This document shows positions 1,739-6,808 of a stretch of DNA of 8,273 bases, piece by piece. Source of the stretch: Treponema sp. Its GTDB lineage: Bacteria; Spirochaetota; Spirochaetia; Treponematales; Treponemataceae. A program made the position numbers and the translations under genes. Every line of letters begins with the position of its first letter. Positions within the stretch are counted from its first letter, which is position 1. A model generated the notes under the pieces. The model worked only from the letters and a program-made list of their open reading frames with translations. It had not been told where the DNA came from and searched no databases. The stretch spans positions 1 through 8,273 of the forward strand of contig JAFYDO010000012.1 in NCBI GenBank assembly GCA_017544745.1, given 5' to 3'.

Positions 1739-2170
1739 ATGAACATGACTATTAAAAACAGAACAAAAATTGCTGCTGCAATTCTCACTTTGGCCCTTAC
1801 TCTTGCATTTACGGGCTGTAATTCTACAAAAAATATTCCTGATGATTTATCTGCTCCACAGCTTTTGCAGAGAGGTCAGGCAAGCCTTGATAATTCAGAT
1901 TATAAAACTGCCGAAAAATATTTCTTAAAAACTATAGAACAGTATGGTGACGACACAGATACTTACATCGAAGCCAAATACGAGCTTGCTCATCTTTATA
2001 TAAAAACAAAGCGCTACGACAAGGCCTATGACAATCTGTCAGAGATTCTTGAATTATATGATTATGCAATTGCAGGAAGCTTACCGGCCGCTTATAAAAA
2101 GCTTGCTCAGATAGAAATGGACAAGATTCCGTCTGCAAAGCTGGAAGAACTCCAGAACTCTAGTCGCTAG
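1739..2170 (+). CDS. TPR-repeat lipoprotein
   Basis: This 143-residue protein has a lipoprotein signal peptide: basic N-region (KNRTK), hydrophobic core, then AFTGC with the lipidated Cys at residue 27. Two tetratricopeptide-like helical pairs follow. The first (about 41-74) contains LLQRGQASLDNSDYKTAEKY; the second (about 76-109) contains AKYELAHLYIKTKRYDKAY. Such repeats are protein-docking scaffolds, and small TPR lipoproteins such as BamD act at the outer membrane. This one is much shorter than BamD and cannot be equated with it. No clear Shine-Dalgarno sequence is present; ATGs at 1739 and 1745 are both in frame and the message may be leaderless. The gene stands alone on its strand, converges on the vWA gene and overlaps it by 11 bases. 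Domain call is firm; the role (periplasmic adaptor) is inferred. Confidence 0.85.
   Translation: MNMTIKNRTKIAAAILTLALTLAFTGCNSTKNIPDDLSAPQLLQRGQASLDNSDYKTAEKYFLKTIEQYGDDTDTYIEAKYELAHLYIKTKRYDKAYDNLSEILELYDYAIAGSLPAAYKKLAQIEMDKIPSAKLEELQNSSR
2160..2170. other. Convergent 3' overlap of the TPR lipoprotein and vWA genes
   Basis: The two genes share 11 bases, CTAGTCGCTAG. The plus-strand stop is the TAG at 2168-2170 and the minus-strand stop is the complement of CTA at 2160-2162. There is no room for a terminator hairpin between them, so both transcripts must end inside the opposite gene or run antisense into it. Confidence 0.85.
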
Positions 2171-3416
2171 GCAGTAAAATAGCTTTTACATTAATTTTCT
2201 TTGTCTCTGCTTTTTCCATTACAAAGTCTTTGGAATATTTACCAAGTCCTCGTGGCTTTGGATGAGGTTCTGCGTCTCCAATCAGAATAATCTGACGGTT
2301 TACATTATCTCCAAGCCGCCAGTTGTAATATTCGCAGGAAGCAAAAATTGCTTCGTAAACTGCTTCCGGAATATCGCCGCCTTCCTTACCCATTATCTTT
2401 ATTGAATTAAGATTCTTATTAAAAGTCTGAAGGTTTTCGGTAAAGCCAAAGAATTTAACAGGCAGGCCCTTGTAGTTAAACGAATCTCCGTAATCACGGT
2501 AGAACAAAAGGCCAAAACGCACTTCTTCAATATTCTTAAAATGCTCCATCAAAGCAGGAAGCAAATCTGTCTTTAAGGTTTCTATATCGTTTTTCATACT
2601 GCCGGTTGCATCAATTGCAAATACAACATCAAGAGGAGCGCCTTCATCCTCAAGAATCTCCATTATATCGGCCACAATAGTTTCGGGTCCCTTGGAATAA
2701 ACTACAAAATCAGAGAGCTCTGAAAATTTCTGGCTTGCAAGAGGATTATAATCTGCACTCAAAATTACTGCAGGCTCTGGTTCCGGTTCCGGCGGATTTT
2801 TCTTAGGCTTTTTGCGGGCTTCCAGATTGAACATAAAAGGACTATCCATATAGTCTCCGGTATAGTCGGCATATGGTTTTTCAAAGGTACGGATATTTAT
2901 AAAAGTTCCTTTTCCAACTTCAACAATACCGTTACGGCTCCATTCGTATCCATACTGAAGCACCGGCGGAATAAAAATATGAAAGGCCTGGTCAAAAAAG
3001 TCGTTTTTTTCCGGAGTAGAATCAATAAGGCTGTATTTTGCACCCTCCGAAACCAGCTGCTGTCCGTCCAGATAGCGTATTTCATCTCCGTTTATAGGAT
3101 TATATTCAGTTGCGCGGTAGGCATAGTTATCTGCTTTTCCGGTAGGATCGCGTGTAGTTTCTGTAAGCAGGATGGAATTTACACCAGCAAGCTTGCGTAC
3201 ATAAAGATGATAACCTGCAATATTTCCGTCTGCATCGCGTTCTTCTATAAGCTTTACGTCATCTGCAGTAATGCGCATAGCCTTCTGTTTAGCAGTATAT
3301 TCAATTTTTTGACTCCCCGCTGTGGAATCTTGAGAAAAAAGCCCTGTCTGAGTAAAAACAAACAAAAAAGCAGGAATAATATAAGCAAAAATTTTCTTTT
3401 TATTATACAAAAACAT
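2160..3416 (-). CDS. Secreted von Willebrand factor A (vWA) domain protein
   Basis: This 418-residue protein begins with a signal peptide: KKK, a hydrophobic core at about 9-26, and likely cleavage after LFS at 28. Residues 30-200 form a region of unknown fold rich in charged and aromatic residues. A Pro/Glu linker (PPEPEPEP, 208-215) precedes a C-terminal vWA domain at about 260-416. The metal-site motif is VVFAIDATGSM at 264-274 (D269-x-T271-x-S273, a common DxTGS variant of DxSxS). It is followed by LLFYRDYGD at 303-311, GGDIPEAV at 346-353 and the distal GDAEPHP at 380-386, all expected of a functional metal-dependent adhesion site. vWA domains bind protein partners through a divalent metal. 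Export suggests a periplasmic or surface role. The protein ends two or three residues after the last predicted strand, with no anchor. Its start is poorly marked: no convincing ribosome site is seen. Confidence 0.85.
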   Translation of the reverse strand: MFLYNKKKIFAYIIPAFLFVFTQTGLFSQDSTAGSQKIEYTAKQKAMRITADDVKLIEERDADGNIAGYHLYVRKLAGVNSILLTETTRDPTGKADNYAYRATEYNPINGDEIRYLDGQQLVSEGAKYSLIDSTPEKNDFFDQAFHIFIPPVLQYGYEWSRNGIVEVGKGTFINIRTFEKPYADYTGDYMDSPFMFNLEARKKPKKNPPEPEPEPAVILSADYNPLASQKFSELSDFVVYSKGPETIVADIMEILEDEGAPLDVVFAIDATGSMKNDIETLKTDLLPALMEHFKNIEEVRFGLLFYRDYGDSFNYKGLPVKFFGFTENLQTFNKNLNSIKIMGKEGGDIPEAVYEAIFASCEYYNWRLGDNVNRQIILIGDAEPHPKPRGLGKYSKDFVMEKAETKKINVKAILLPSD

Positions 3417-3483: not shown

Positions 3484-4020
3484 ATGAGCATGAAATTCAA
3501 GGCTTTTATCGTTATTTTAGTATTTTTTGGTTTCTCAACCGCCTTATTTGCCAAGCCTGTAGCCTATTCATTTTCTGGTTTTGGCGGAGGACTTCCTTCT
3601 TCTGCTTATGCAGGTGCAGATACAGCAACCTCTAAAAAAATCATAATTGAAGACGATGACGATGATGATGATTATAACGATGACTATTATAGCGACGAGC
3701 CTACAGTAAACAAAGGTAAGAATACTGCCCTTATTGTAACCGGTGTGGTCGTTGGTCTTGTTGCAGTTGCCGGTGTTATTTACGGAACCTACTATTTTAC
3801 AAATCAGTCCAGCGAATGTTGCGCCCAGGCTACCGACAGCTTTATTCAGGGTTGTGGCGAAGGCTGTGGAGATGCCTGTGAACAGAGTATGGAACAGGCC
3901 TGCAGCGAGTCATTATCCAGTGCCTGCTCTTCCAACTCAAGTACTGTAACCTGCAGCGAGGCTTCTATAGGAGCGATTTTTGGAAATGGATTACAGATTA
4001 TTCCAATCTTTATTCCATAA
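3484..4020 (+). CDS. Exported membrane protein with poly-Asp tract and cysteine-patterned C-terminal region, unrecognised
   Basis: 178 residues from the ATG at 3484 (176 from the ATG at 3490). Residues 3-23 are a signal peptide (MKFK, hydrophobic core, cleavage likely after LFA). A Gly/Ser-rich stretch leads to an acidic block: seven consecutive Asp at 57-63, then more Asp with Tyr to about 72. A hydrophobic segment at 81-103 is a probable membrane helix. The C-terminal part has eight cysteines (112, 113, 124, 128, 132, 140, 148, 157), rich in Ser, Gly and Glu, and ends in a hydrophobic tail (161-178). Membrane topology is ambiguous: lysines flank the N-terminal side of the helix. It is the first gene of a four-gene operon and overlaps the LolA-YidD gene by 41 bases. 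I do not recognise the family; a structural or metal-binding envelope role is only a guess. Confidence 0.8.
   Translation: MSMKFKAFIVILVFFGFSTALFAKPVAYSFSGFGGGLPSSAYAGADTATSKKIIIEDDDDDDDYNDDYYSDEPTVNKGKNTALIVTGVVVGLVAVAGVIYGTYYFTNQSSECCAQATDSFIQGCGEGCGDACEQSMEQACSESLSSACSSNSSTVTCSEASIGAIFGNGLQIIPIFIP
3969..3973 (+). promoter_or_regulatory. Ribosome binding site that decides a TTG start
   Basis: AGGAG lies inside the end of the preceding gene, 6 bases before a TTG at 3980 and 12 before an ATG at 3986. The better spacing favours the TTG; the two choices differ by two residues and leave the signal peptide unchanged. Confidence 0.55.
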
Positions 4021-5032
4021 AAAATCGCAGAAAAGCCTGCTTTTTTTTACCGTAGTTTTTTTATTTTCTCTTTTTCCTTTAACAGCCGCTTCAAAGTCTA
4101 TTTCTTCTCTTTCGCTTGATTTTACACGCACCGAAGAAATTGCTTCTGATTCAACAATGACAGGAAGCATACTCTATACCGCTTCTCCGTTTTTCTTTCT
4201 TTTTAAAACAAGCCTGCCCCAGCCGCAGGAGGTTTTTATAAATGAGGACGGAGCCTTTATAATTCAGGATGATACAATCTATGAACTTGAAGAAGGTGCC
4301 GAATACCTTGAACAGATCTGTAAGGATTTTTTAAACTGGTTCAAAGAGGATTTTGGACTTACAGAATCGTCCTTTATTCCACAACAGCGTGCAATGGAAA
4401 ACGGTCTTGTCGTAACCCAGTGGAATTATTCAAAGCAGGACAGCCACCCCATAGATACTGTAATGGTTTATACCGACATGACCGGTAAAACACGTACACT
4501 CAAAATGTACATGGATTTTTCTACACTGCTTACACAAACCCAGCTGAACGAATATAAGTATTATAACGGAAGAAATTTTCCGGTTCAGATAACCTCTACC
4601 TCTTATGAAAATAACGAGCCGGTTTTAATTACAAAACTAAGCTTTTCGAATATTGAATTTAACAGAGCCTCGAGTATGGAAGCAACAGAACCGCTAAAGG
4701 ATGCTTCCGTTCTTACTGCTTACGCAAGGCCGTCCGAAGTTCAGGCACAAACTTATTATGTTTCCATTCCGTCTGTACTGTTGAATACCTCGTTCAGATT
4801 TTACAAAAGATTTATTACTGAACAGGATATGACCAACTGTCCTTTTTATCCTTCCTGTTCGCAGTACATGGTTGATGCTGTAAGTCAAAACGGTTTGTTC
4901 GGAATATTTCAGGGACTGGAACGACTCAAGCGCTGTACAAATGCAGAACACAAAAGAGACCTCTACCCTACACTCAGTAACGGTAAGCACTATGATCCGG
5001 TTCCTGCAAAAAAAGCAAAGGGGGAACAATAA
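3980..5032 (+). CDS. Fusion of a LolA-like lipoprotein-carrier domain with a C-terminal YidD domain, exported
   Basis: 350 residues. The N-terminus has a basic region (HKKSQK), a hydrophobic core at about 19-36 and likely signal cleavage after TAA (37). Residues 40-230 read like a LolA-type half-barrel that binds lipoprotein acyl chains in the periplasm: SLDFTR, then TGSILYTASPFFFLF (61-75), then EVFINEDGAFIIQDDTIYEL (84-103), then FPVQITS and LSFSNIEFN near 200-228. Residues 263-342 are a YidD domain: FRFYKRFIT (272-280), CPFYPSCSQYMVDAV (287-301), LERLKRCT (313-320) and YDPVP (338-342), including the family's conserved cysteines. YidD normally is a small stand-alone protein at the inner face of the inner membrane that helps YidC insert proteins. 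Here a signal sequence should place it in the periplasm. YidD assignment is strong; LolA-like is moderate. Confidence 0.85.
   Translation: MEMDYRLFQSLFHKKSQKSLLFFTVVFLFSLFPLTAASKSISSLSLDFTRTEEIASDSTMTGSILYTASPFFFLFKTSLPQPQEVFINEDGAFIIQDDTIYELEEGAEYLEQICKDFLNWFKEDFGLTESSFIPQQRAMENGLVVTQWNYSKQDSHPIDTVMVYTDMTGKTRTLKMYMDFSTLLTQTQLNEYKYYNGRNFPVQITSTSYENNEPVLITKLSFSNIEFNRASSMEATEPLKDASVLTAYARPSEVQAQTYYVSIPSVLLNTSFRFYKRFITEQDMTNCPFYPSCSQYMVDAVSQNGLFGIFQGLERLKRCTNAEHKRDLYPTLSNGKHYDPVPAKKAKGEQ
5019..5024 (+). promoter_or_regulatory. Ribosome binding site of the first TPR/TM2-like paralog
   Basis: AGGGGG inside the last codons of the LolA-YidD gene lies 7 bases before the ATG at 5032. That ATG shares an A with the upstream stop (TAATG), giving coupled translation and probably similar output of the two proteins. 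Confidence 0.6.
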
Positions 5033-5922
5033 TGAAAAAAATAAATATATTTTTATGCTTACTGACTCTGTGCTGGTTTACAGGTGGGGCTAACCAAATC
5101 TTTGCACAGGAAGTTTCTGCCTATGCACCATCTACTGTAAAGGCTTTTGCAGATTCACTTTACAGTCAAGGCTTTTTATCTCAGGCAGAAGGCGAATACA
5201 AGCGTTATCTTTTTTCTGTGGAATTCAGTTCGCAGGAGGAAGCAGTACAGAGCCTTGATTTTCAGTCTTCGCTTAGCACACTGTGTAATATTTACAGGGC
5301 ACAGCAGAATATAACCGGCATCAACTGGCTTGAGAAGAATTTTTACAAGAATGCGCAGCTACAAACTAAACAAAGGCTAAAGCTTTTGCAGGGTAAATAT
5401 ATTTTTATGGAAAGAAATGCACCGGCTTTTAAGGACTTTTACCAGCCGCTCGACCTTGATTCCTTTACTCCCGATTTTTCGAATCTTGTAAAGGCATCGG
5501 ACTATGTACTTAACAAAAATATTGATGAGCTTTCTAAGCTTTGTACACAGATAAACCAGCTGCAGGGAGACAATTCACTTTTCATAAATCTTGGAGAATT
5601 GAGCAATTCATATAAGCTTAAAAAACCTGGCGTTGCACTTTTACTTTCTTCGCTTATCCCAGGAAGCGGCAGATGGTACACAGGTTCGTTTGCAGCTTTT
5701 ACAGGAAGCTTTCTTTCAGTAGGTTCTTTTGTTGCGGGCACTGTAGTTACGGGAATCCAGTCTCAATGGAAAAGCTGGCAGCCATACGTTTTTGGAGCCT
5801 GCGGACTTGTTTTATATATTGTAGATTTATACGGCTCATACCAGAGTGCAAAGCGCTATAACGATGCACTTTACCGTCACCTATGCGAGGAAACAGAAAA
5901 AATATATGAAGCAGTTTATTAG
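5032..5922 (+). CDS. Exported TPR-like protein with C-terminal TM2/DUF5683-like hydrophobic domain (paralog 1)
   Basis: 296 residues. A signal peptide (MKKINIF, hydrophobic core, IFA cleavage after 25) is followed by a helical, TPR-like region. Its first pair, around 36-62, includes FLSQAEGEYKRYLF. Residues 30-195 should therefore be periplasmic. The C-terminal part has three hydrophobic stretches, at about 198-217, 222-241 and 251-268. The first carries KKPGVALLLSSLIPGSGRWY, with the P-G-x-G-x-x-Y-x-G pattern found at the first membrane hairpin of TM2 and DUF5683 proteins. A basic YGSYQSAKRYN segment (267-277) follows. It resembles the next gene over its whole length, implying tandem duplication. 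The operon position directly after a YidD fusion suggests work in envelope protein assembly, but no member of this exact architecture is known to me by function. Confidence 0.8.
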   Translation: MKKINIFLCLLTLCWFTGGANQIFAQEVSAYAPSTVKAFADSLYSQGFLSQAEGEYKRYLFSVEFSSQEEAVQSLDFQSSLSTLCNIYRAQQNITGINWLEKNFYKNAQLQTKQRLKLLQGKYIFMERNAPAFKDFYQPLDLDSFTPDFSNLVKASDYVLNKNIDELSKLCTQINQLQGDNSLFINLGELSNSYKLKKPGVALLLSSLIPGSGRWYTGSFAAFTGSFLSVGSFVAGTVVTGIQSQWKSWQPYVFGACGLVLYIVDLYGSYQSAKRYNDALYRHLCEETEKIYEAVY

Positions 5923-6808
5923 GTTTTGCACAGCCGCTTTTATTACAGCTGTATTTTTGTTTCCCGTTTTTGCGATAGACACTGTTCCTGCTGCAGACGT
6001 CTACGAGGATGTTTTTTTGTACGCTCAAAAGCTTGAACAGGGAGGTGCCCTGGAAGAAGCCGAGGTTGAATACAAGCGCTATATTTTTCTGCAGGATTAT
6101 TCTGCGGGAGTTCATCAGACTCAAGCCTTTTCAAGTCTTGCACAGCTTTATGCTAAAAAGGAACAGTGGCAGCTGGCCGCAGATTCAATGAACCAGGCAA
6201 TTCAAAGCTCAATAAACGACGGACAAAGGACAGAAGAAACAGATTTGCTACGGCTCAGGCATATTCAGTATCTTTCGCATCTTAGCAGTAACCTCTATAT
6301 TTTTTCGTACATCAATTTTCCCGACTTTTCGACGGATGTACGGCAGGCCGCTTTTCTTGCAGATTTTAAGAACTGCATAGAGCAGGAGCTCTGGCAAAAC
6401 GCAAAGGACAAATTTGATTTTGCACAGCGGGAGTTCCCTGATCTGTTTACACAGGAACAGGCTCAAACTATAAACTCAAGCTTTCAAAGTATCTTTGCTT
6501 ATAAACCAAAAAAGCAGCTTCTAGCAGGTTATCTTTCATTTATTCCGGGTCTTGGCCAGCTTTATGCAGGAGATCCGCTGGATGCACTCAATGCCTTTGT
6601 TTTAAACGGTTCGCTAATTGCAGTAAGTGCATGGTCACTTTGTACACTGGACTTCTGGACCTTCTCTTTATTGGAGTTTAATCCCCTGGCACATTTTATG
6701 AAAGGCAATATTTACAATGCCCAGAAGGATGCTTATGAGTATAATCAGAGGAAGCTCAAGGCTTTTTCAAGCCAAATTCTGGATATTGTGGATGAGAAAA
6801 TACATTGA
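5906..6808 (+). CDS. Exported TPR-like protein with C-terminal TM2/DUF5683-like hydrophobic domain (paralog 2)
   Basis: 300 residues from the ATG at 5906. An open frame from 5846 would add 20 hydrophilic residues before the signal peptide and is unlikely to be used. With the 5906 start, the signal peptide begins MKQFIRF and is cleaved after VFA (23), and the shared motif AE(G/V)EYKRY(L/I)F falls at residues 52-61 in both paralogs. A TPR-like region spans about 32-100. The C-terminal domain begins with KKQLLAGYLSFIPGLGQLYAGD (given here as positions 202-223; the key signature is PGLGQLYAG), followed by hydrophobic segments at about 226-245 and 248-266 and a NIYNAQKDAYEYN basic/aromatic stretch near 268-280. 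The start lies 17 bases inside the upstream gene; a weak GAGG sits about 15 bases upstream. The stop overlaps the next promoter. It probably acts with paralog 1, possibly as a hetero-oligomer (inferred). Confidence 0.8.
   Translation: MKQFIRFCTAAFITAVFLFPVFAIDTVPAADVYEDVFLYAQKLEQGGALEEAEVEYKRYIFLQDYSAGVHQTQAFSSLAQLYAKKEQWQLAADSMNQAIQSSINDGQRTEETDLLRLRHIQYLSHLSSNLYIFSYINFPDFSTDVRQAAFLADFKNCIEQELWQNAKDKFDFAQREFPDLFTQEQAQTINSSFQSIFAYKPKKQLLAGYLSFIPGLGQLYAGDPLDALNAFVLNGSLIAVSAWSLCTLDFWTFSLLEFNPLAHFMKGNIYNAQKDAYEYNQRKLKAFSSQILDIVDEKIH

Follow-up and report, generated by a model that had tools for sequence, protein, structure and literature searches.

In a stretch of 8,273 nucleotides from a Treponema sp. 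assembly (GCA_017544745.1, contig JAFYDO010000012.1; this whole stretch is the window below), we analyzed a gene of a gut Treponema in which a lipid-carrier-like domain is joined to a YidD domain with an apparent role outside the cytoplasm. The open reading frame (ORF) occupies positions 3980..5032 of the forward strand and is open over 350 aa from a TTG at 3980, but the likely start of the gene is the ATG at 3986, since a protein 99% identical to it (P0001) begins there. The C-terminal part is recognized as YidD by two curated profiles, PF01809 at aa 270-322 (Pfam, 50.8 bits against a cut-off of 27) and TIGR00278 (51.9 bits, cut-off 40), in agreement with the first-pass annotation of this sequence. 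The signal peptide that it had proposed is also supported by the hydrophobic N-terminal segment (Table 1), which forms a helix at aa 6-31 in the structure model. The architecture itself, LolA-like and YidD parts in a single ORF, recurs in 85 homologues found by protein search, which cover 74-100% of the query and all contain PF01809. A chance match or a frame artefact is ruled out by these profile scores, by the homologues and by the substitution rates given below.

Table 1. Coordinates of the fused gene, its parts and the overlapping genes in the window (aa counted from the TTG at 3980).
Feature	Coordinates	Strand	Remarks
Upstream overlapping gene: exported protein, hydrophobic segment, Cys-rich tail	3484..4020	+	no Pfam family over cut-off
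Fused gene: export signal, LolA/LolB-fold domain, linker and YidD domain, apparently of the exported class	3986..5032	+	
N-terminal export signal, aa 1-36	3980..4087	+	predicted; hydrophobic 12-mer, Kyte-Doolittle mean 2.8
LolA/LolB-fold domain, aa 38-240	4091..4699	+	aa 231-240 of low confidence in the model
Linker, aa 241-262	4700..4765	+	mean predicted local distance difference test (pLDDT) 43-45 (aa 241-260); identity 0.55 to L001
YidD domain, apparently of the exported class, aa 263-343, with leading helix 263-280	4766..5008	+	profiles, trees, model
Cys1-x5-Cys2-Ser core (CPFYPSCS)	4838..4861	+	invariant alignment columns; follows the class-typical Asp (aa 283)
Partner gene 1: export signal, TPR domain, C-terminal Pro-Gly-x-Gly membrane hairpin	5032..5922	+	1-base overlap with the fused gene
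Partner gene 2: paralogue of partner 1	5903..6808	+	overlaps partner 1; ORF open from 5846, likely ATG 5903

For the N-terminal half, the earlier expectation of a LolA-type domain held for the fold and failed for the Pfam family. The modelled domain has the half-barrel of the LolA/LolB superfamily, and the matches listed in the fold comparison cover aa 38-245 only. No match to Pfam LolA (PF03548) at its gathering score was found on the fused protein, and the only Pfam hit in this part was DUF4292, under its cut-off (E 0.064). Identity to the five best solved structural matches is 7-12%, and the same fold is shared by DUF1329, RseB/MucB and LprG; as it includes the RseB/MucB sensors, lipoprotein carriage is no more than a putative function of this part. 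Sequence searches for a solved structure of YidD returned none for the whole fused protein or for a canonical YidD protein, and none that was convincing for a profile of the exported YidD class described below (best E 0.26). The linker is the least conserved portion of the protein in comparison with the related fused locus L001.

P0005, the one homologue that carries an organism name, is from Treponema, and so are the records of the four loci with full-length matches. The fusion was found in 10 of 98 genomes from the genus of G001, nine being full-length and one partial, starting at base 11 of its contig (G728). In the family sample it was present in 4 of 110 genomes. The ratio of nonsynonymous to synonymous substitution rates (dN/dS) against L001 is 0.155 for the LolA-like part, 0.35 for the linker and 0.07 for YidD, and against L002 it is 0.19 for the LolA-like part and 0.06 for YidD, with dS of 2.2-2.3. 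These low values indicate that both domains are kept.

YidD is present in nearly all sampled genomes (287 of 296, for example). The role of canonical YidD with YidC reportedly has its basis in the work of Yu et al. 2011, to which reviews and citing papers refer; YidD is treated in PMC13066512, PMC3573977, PMC6822775, PMC8082313 and PMC10502375. The check for a separate yidD near rnpA, called for in the first-pass annotation, was positive in related genomes: all four genomes of the closest loci (G001-G004) have two PF01809 places each, one in a short frame (85-98 aa) with a score of 106-111 bits, the other being the fused one with 54-58 bits. The short gene is within rpmH-rnpA-yidD-yidC in 4/4 of them, the names rpmH, rnpA and yidC being assigned by reading the sequences, without a profile match. 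The fused YidD is therefore an extra paralogue, and the possibility that it is the sole YidD of the cell is ruled out in these four relatives. It is not a small stand-alone protein of that cluster either, since the fused gene lies elsewhere, and in this respect its location is as unusual as had been noted.

Another YidD, usually some 110-180 aa long and with an N-terminal hydrophobic segment, was found in many genomes of the phylum. In a tree of 133 YidD domains, the 45 canonical sequences, other phyla included, lie on one side of a branch with a Shimodaira-Hasegawa-like approximate likelihood ratio (SH-aLRT) support of 94, and the 35 fused domains group together (SH-aLRT 99), nested with 53 exported ones. 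In a tree of 167 domains that includes other phyla, the fused group has a support of 99 and the exported sequences of Pseudomonadota 98. The class residues follow the same division. An Asp up to five residues before Cys1 occurs in 1/52 canonical, 44/53 exported spirochaete, 23/24 exported Pseudomonadota and 35/35 fused sequences, and Asp or Glu followed by Arg ([DE]R) after the helix in 0/52, 50/53, 24/24 and 35/35, respectively. Gly-Gly before the C-terminal motif is found in 48/52 canonical sequences, versus none of the other three groups. Three exported sequences from the phylum of L012 (a Cytophagales assembly), left by the motif filter out of nine, have Asp in 3/3, [DE]R in 3/3 and Gly-Gly in 1/3. 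The third Cys of YidD is kept in all 35 fused sequences and in none of the 24 exported ones of Pseudomonadota.

A hydrophobic stretch of export type precedes the domain in 82 of 84 exported YidD sequences (51/52, 8/8 and 23/24 in the three phylum samples) versus 3 of 46 canonical ones, and the exported YidD of G749 bears a lipobox-like LSSC. Of the 32 fused proteins with a length of 320 aa or more, 30 have an N-terminal hydrophobic segment, and none shows a transmembrane-like stretch in the region from aa 60 to Cys1. The fused protein of the window combines an export-type signal, the Asp before Cys1, [DE]R and a neighbouring TPR/Pro-Gly-x-Gly gene, and both its tree position and its residues separate it from canonical YidD. 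Judging from sequence, its YidD domain belongs to a separate, apparently exported YidD class, and the simplest topology would place the entire protein outside the cytoplasm. Given the position in the exported clade and the lack of a transmembrane-like segment between the domains, the YidD part and canonical YidD most likely lie on different sides of the membrane. The original proposal of lipoprotein carriage joined to a YidC-type insertion factor is not supported by these results, since that factor is encoded separately in 4/4 relatives and the fused YidD falls in the exported clade.

Downstream of the fused gene, the membrane hairpins of both partner proteins contain an invariant Pro-Gly-x-Gly, and the TPR fold is predicted with a mean pLDDT of 93.7. 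Their curated matches are weak (DUF5683 in 6/16 members, DUF6677 in 5/16) and no curated family covering them whole was found. Overlaps link all four genes between 3484 and 6808, an arrangement as in one transcription unit; promoter and terminator predictions between 3300 and 7000 were close to those of shuffled sequence (9 versus a mean of 7.1, and 5 versus 3.7), and no tandem repeats were found. A counterpart of the upstream gene occurs in 4 of 7 fused loci examined (the window, L001, L002 and L096), and its membership in the module is uncertain. On the reverse strand, positions 2160-3416 encode an exported protein that has relatives in L001 and L002 and whose von Willebrand type A domain matches Med25_VWA (27.5 bits, cut-off 21).

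The association of exported YidD with these partners was counted on 150 listed YidD places and 150 listed partner places of the same 296 genomes, both lists covering a part of the places in the sample. Among them, long-frame yidD genes (at least 110 aa) have a partner within 600 bp in 52 of 74 places (51 genomes), in all 52 cases downstream and on the same strand, and short-frame yidD genes in 0 of 76. A partner is also present in 54 of 55 spirochaete loci, which were mostly chosen for partner adjacency and so provide no independent test. On the L012 side, 11 loci were picked by frame length or N-terminal match, two of which (L154, L155) proved to be of canonical type and were moved to the canonical group; the nine exported-type loci all have a partner, with two in tandem at eight. 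One of these nine encodes exported YidD and a TPR/Pro-Gly-x-Gly partner-like sequence as a single protein of 400 aa (L153:4099-5301). In the spirochaete locus L086, a further DUF5683-type gene (4579-5448; 27.0 bits, cut-off 26.7) lies three genes upstream of the exported yidD, within a cluster of envelope type with gene families that are met again at five other spirochaete loci.

The LolA-like part also occurs as a separate gene. In G749, from the same family, an unfused LolA-like protein of 248 aa, an exported YidD of 127 aa and a partner are encoded by neighbouring genes, and G108 (phylum sample) and G439 (another phylum) have the same neighbours, with one or more partners. Profile alignments (hhalign) against the fused N-terminal domain gave probabilities of 97.0% for G749, 95.1% for G108 and 96.6% for G439, and the best of the controls, 60 of 136 ORFs of similar length, reached 1.5%. 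The G108 protein leans to Pfam LolA (E 2.1e-4, 21.5 bits, under the cut-off of 23.6), with 13.7 and 13.6 bits for those of G749 and G439. The fusion is thus not an isolated case. Upstream genes of G054, G190 and G211 looked LolA-like by eye and were not counted, because their hhalign probability to the fused N-terminal domain was only 5.1% for the three aligned and 0.7% for one; the two of them compared with Pfam gave weak matches to PF17131 under its cut-off. The upstream genes of L086-L090 (366-385 aa) were discarded as well (0.1%). Other upstream neighbours include a secF-like gene directly before the exported yidD in L092 (6893-8218) and a secF-like neighbour in G016 (SecD_SecF_C, 230 bits). 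In L098 (6955-8424), an ORF of 489 aa joins a sequence resembling an outer-membrane protein (OMP) to exported YidD with an internal signal-like stretch, being either a second fusion or the result of a stop codon lost in assembly.

In the phylum of L005 (a Gammaproteobacteria record, which makes the phylum Pseudomonadota), exported YidD was found in 46 of 200 genomes with E ≤1.7e-18, the next match being at 4.9e-16, and 24 loci were retrieved from these matches. A pseudopilin motif lies within 3 kb in 22 of them, the distance being 227-296 bp for 21 loci and 712 bp for L184; those without it are L183, the weakest of the 46 matches, and L170, a middling one. The calls were made by motif, with Pfam confirmation in two loci: in L157, T2SSG adjoins YidD, and in L175 the operon order is T2SSE, T2SSF, a DUF6677-like protein, YidD, T2SSG and GspH. 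A Pro-Gly-x-Gly protein was found in 7 of the 24 loci. Neither the motif nor such a protein was found at 46 canonical yidD loci, and the motif was absent within 3 kb in the 55 spirochaete loci and in the five Treponema loci. Named relatives of the L176 protein come from Mariprofundus, Ghiorsea and other Zetaproteobacteria, and L157 is from the order of G531. The exported YidD gene stands beside gspG-type pseudopilin genes in L157 (3242-8410), L171-L182 and L184, and several of these loci encode a short Pro-Gly-x-Gly protein between a gspF-like gene and yidD. In L156 (1881-3047), next to pseudopilin-like genes, exported YidD forms the end of a protein that also has a phospholipid-methyltransferase-like (PEMT) domain; this could be two genes read together.

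We suggest, with confidence that is about evenly divided, that a second YidD class is widespread and acts at the periplasmic side of the inner membrane, in a module with TPR/Pro-Gly-x-Gly membrane proteins. Different envelope machines would have taken up this module: in spirochaetes it would go with LolA-like carriers, with a fusion in Treponema, and in Zetaproteobacteria and a further order of Pseudomonadota with type II secretion. For the window, our explanation is that the protein is the fused form of a two-gene unit of LolA-like protein and exported YidD, part of a wider envelope module formed by exported YidD with one or two TPR/Pro-Gly-x-Gly membrane proteins, in which YidD would dock a carrier of hydrophobic cargo at the periplasmic face of the inner membrane; we see this as roughly an even call. 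The fused protein would be exported through its N-terminal signal, and the leading helix would hold the YidD domain on the periplasmic face of the inner membrane. There it may meet the TPR/Pro-Gly-x-Gly partners, as the recurring gene order and the L153 fusion suggest. Considering its fold, the LolA-like half-barrel on its flexible tether could take up a hydrophobic client, either a lipid-anchored protein or a lipid, and then pass it on.

Several observations weigh against this proposal. A LolA-type fold, as modelled, would suit more than one of the candidate clients. The YidD part of the model is poor, with 10-residue pLDDT means of 51-71, so that the YidD fold rests on sequence profiles, and export was judged by a hydrophobicity rule. 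The YidD trees are based on 70-75 columns; that of 133 domains carries a long-branch warning for the fused group in relation to L110 and two others, and that of 167 needs two label changes to part the canonical sequences from the rest. In the selection analysis, dS against L002 approaches saturation, and the signal region shows no constraint (dN/dS 0.98). Among the listed places, 22 of 74 long-frame yidD genes have no partner within 600 bp, some being canonical genes in long frames and four having a partner at 600-1200 bp, and 66 of 150 partner places have no yidD within 2 kb. The LolA-like neighbour is established in only three unfused lineages, and the 240-aa upstream gene of G054 type does not match the fused N-terminal domain (hhalign 0.7%). 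Other exported-yidD loci have an upstream OMP-like gene (by eye, with no Pfam match), secF or nothing recognizable.

The YidD part could still be a YidC-type insertion helper, either cytoplasmic by an unusual topology or aiding the same nascent clients from the outer side, in which case the LolA-like part would receive the newly inserted proteins. Pseudopilins are inner-membrane proteins, and their genes adjoin exported YidD in Pseudomonadota, which makes a link to membrane insertion conceivable, and the fused YidD scores over both curated YidD cut-offs. However, none of the 32 fused proteins has a transmembrane-like segment between its domains, the canonical gene is also present in the four genomes, and the class-specific residues differ; we consider an insertion helper rather improbable. 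The LolA-like part could also serve in the periplasm as a sensor or as a binder of peptides, like RseB/MucB, with YidD as a simple anchor on the membrane surface. This explanation agrees with the shared fold and seems unlikely to us, if less remote.

The module might also belong, as an accessory part, to a machine for secretion or to a pilus-like one and have kept that role in Treponema, with the machine genes elsewhere. The pseudopilin motifs at 22 of the 24 Pseudomonadota loci and the gene row of L175 point in this direction, against which stands the absence of the motif within 3 kb of the Treponema and other spirochaete loci, and we give this explanation a low probability. The reading that we prefer is the periplasmic module with a LolA-like carrier. 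If the widespread second class suggested above is real, YidD would be a general handover domain of the membrane surface, beyond a helper of YidC.

The exported class has recurring partner genes across several bacterial phyla and seems to have been overlooked, its proteins being named in databases as generic YidD or "hypothetical protein". Exported YidD, YidD in type II secretion and a LolA-YidD fusion had no mention among the titles and abstract openings listed from the open-licence literature, which leaves subscription papers largely outside. The role of YidD is poorly settled in spite of its nearly universal presence in the sample. With its apparent export, its recurring neighbours and at least two fusions to them, to the LolA-like domain in Treponema and to the TPR/Pro-Gly-x-Gly protein in L153, the exported class offers testable partners and a way to ask if YidD acts on membranes generally. 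These results also point to an unassigned component encoded next to gspG in operons of type II secretion and, in spirochaetes, where lipoprotein sorting is less understood than in E. coli, to a further protein of the LolA fold.

Compared with known systems, the fused protein resembles YidD (PF01809, TIGR00278; YidD of E. coli) in its Cys1-x5-Cys2-Ser, Arg-Cys and C-terminal Asp-Pro-Val-Pro. Unlike the canonical protein, it is apparently exported, has Asp before Cys1, lacks Gly-Gly, has Glu-Arg where the canonical one has Lys/Arg-Arg, lies outside the rpmH-rnpA-yidC cluster and is joined to another domain. From the LolA/LolB superfamily (PF03548, PF17131) it differs by the lack of a Pfam LolA match, the low identity and the attached YidD. 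The partners resemble TPR proteins with DUF5683/DUF6677-like Pro-Gly-x-Gly ends. The type II operons of Zetaproteobacteria and of the order of G531 share with the window an exported YidD of this class, accompanied at 7 of 24 loci by a Pro-Gly-x-Gly protein, whereas the Treponema gene has no pseudopilin motif nearby and keeps the third YidD Cys.
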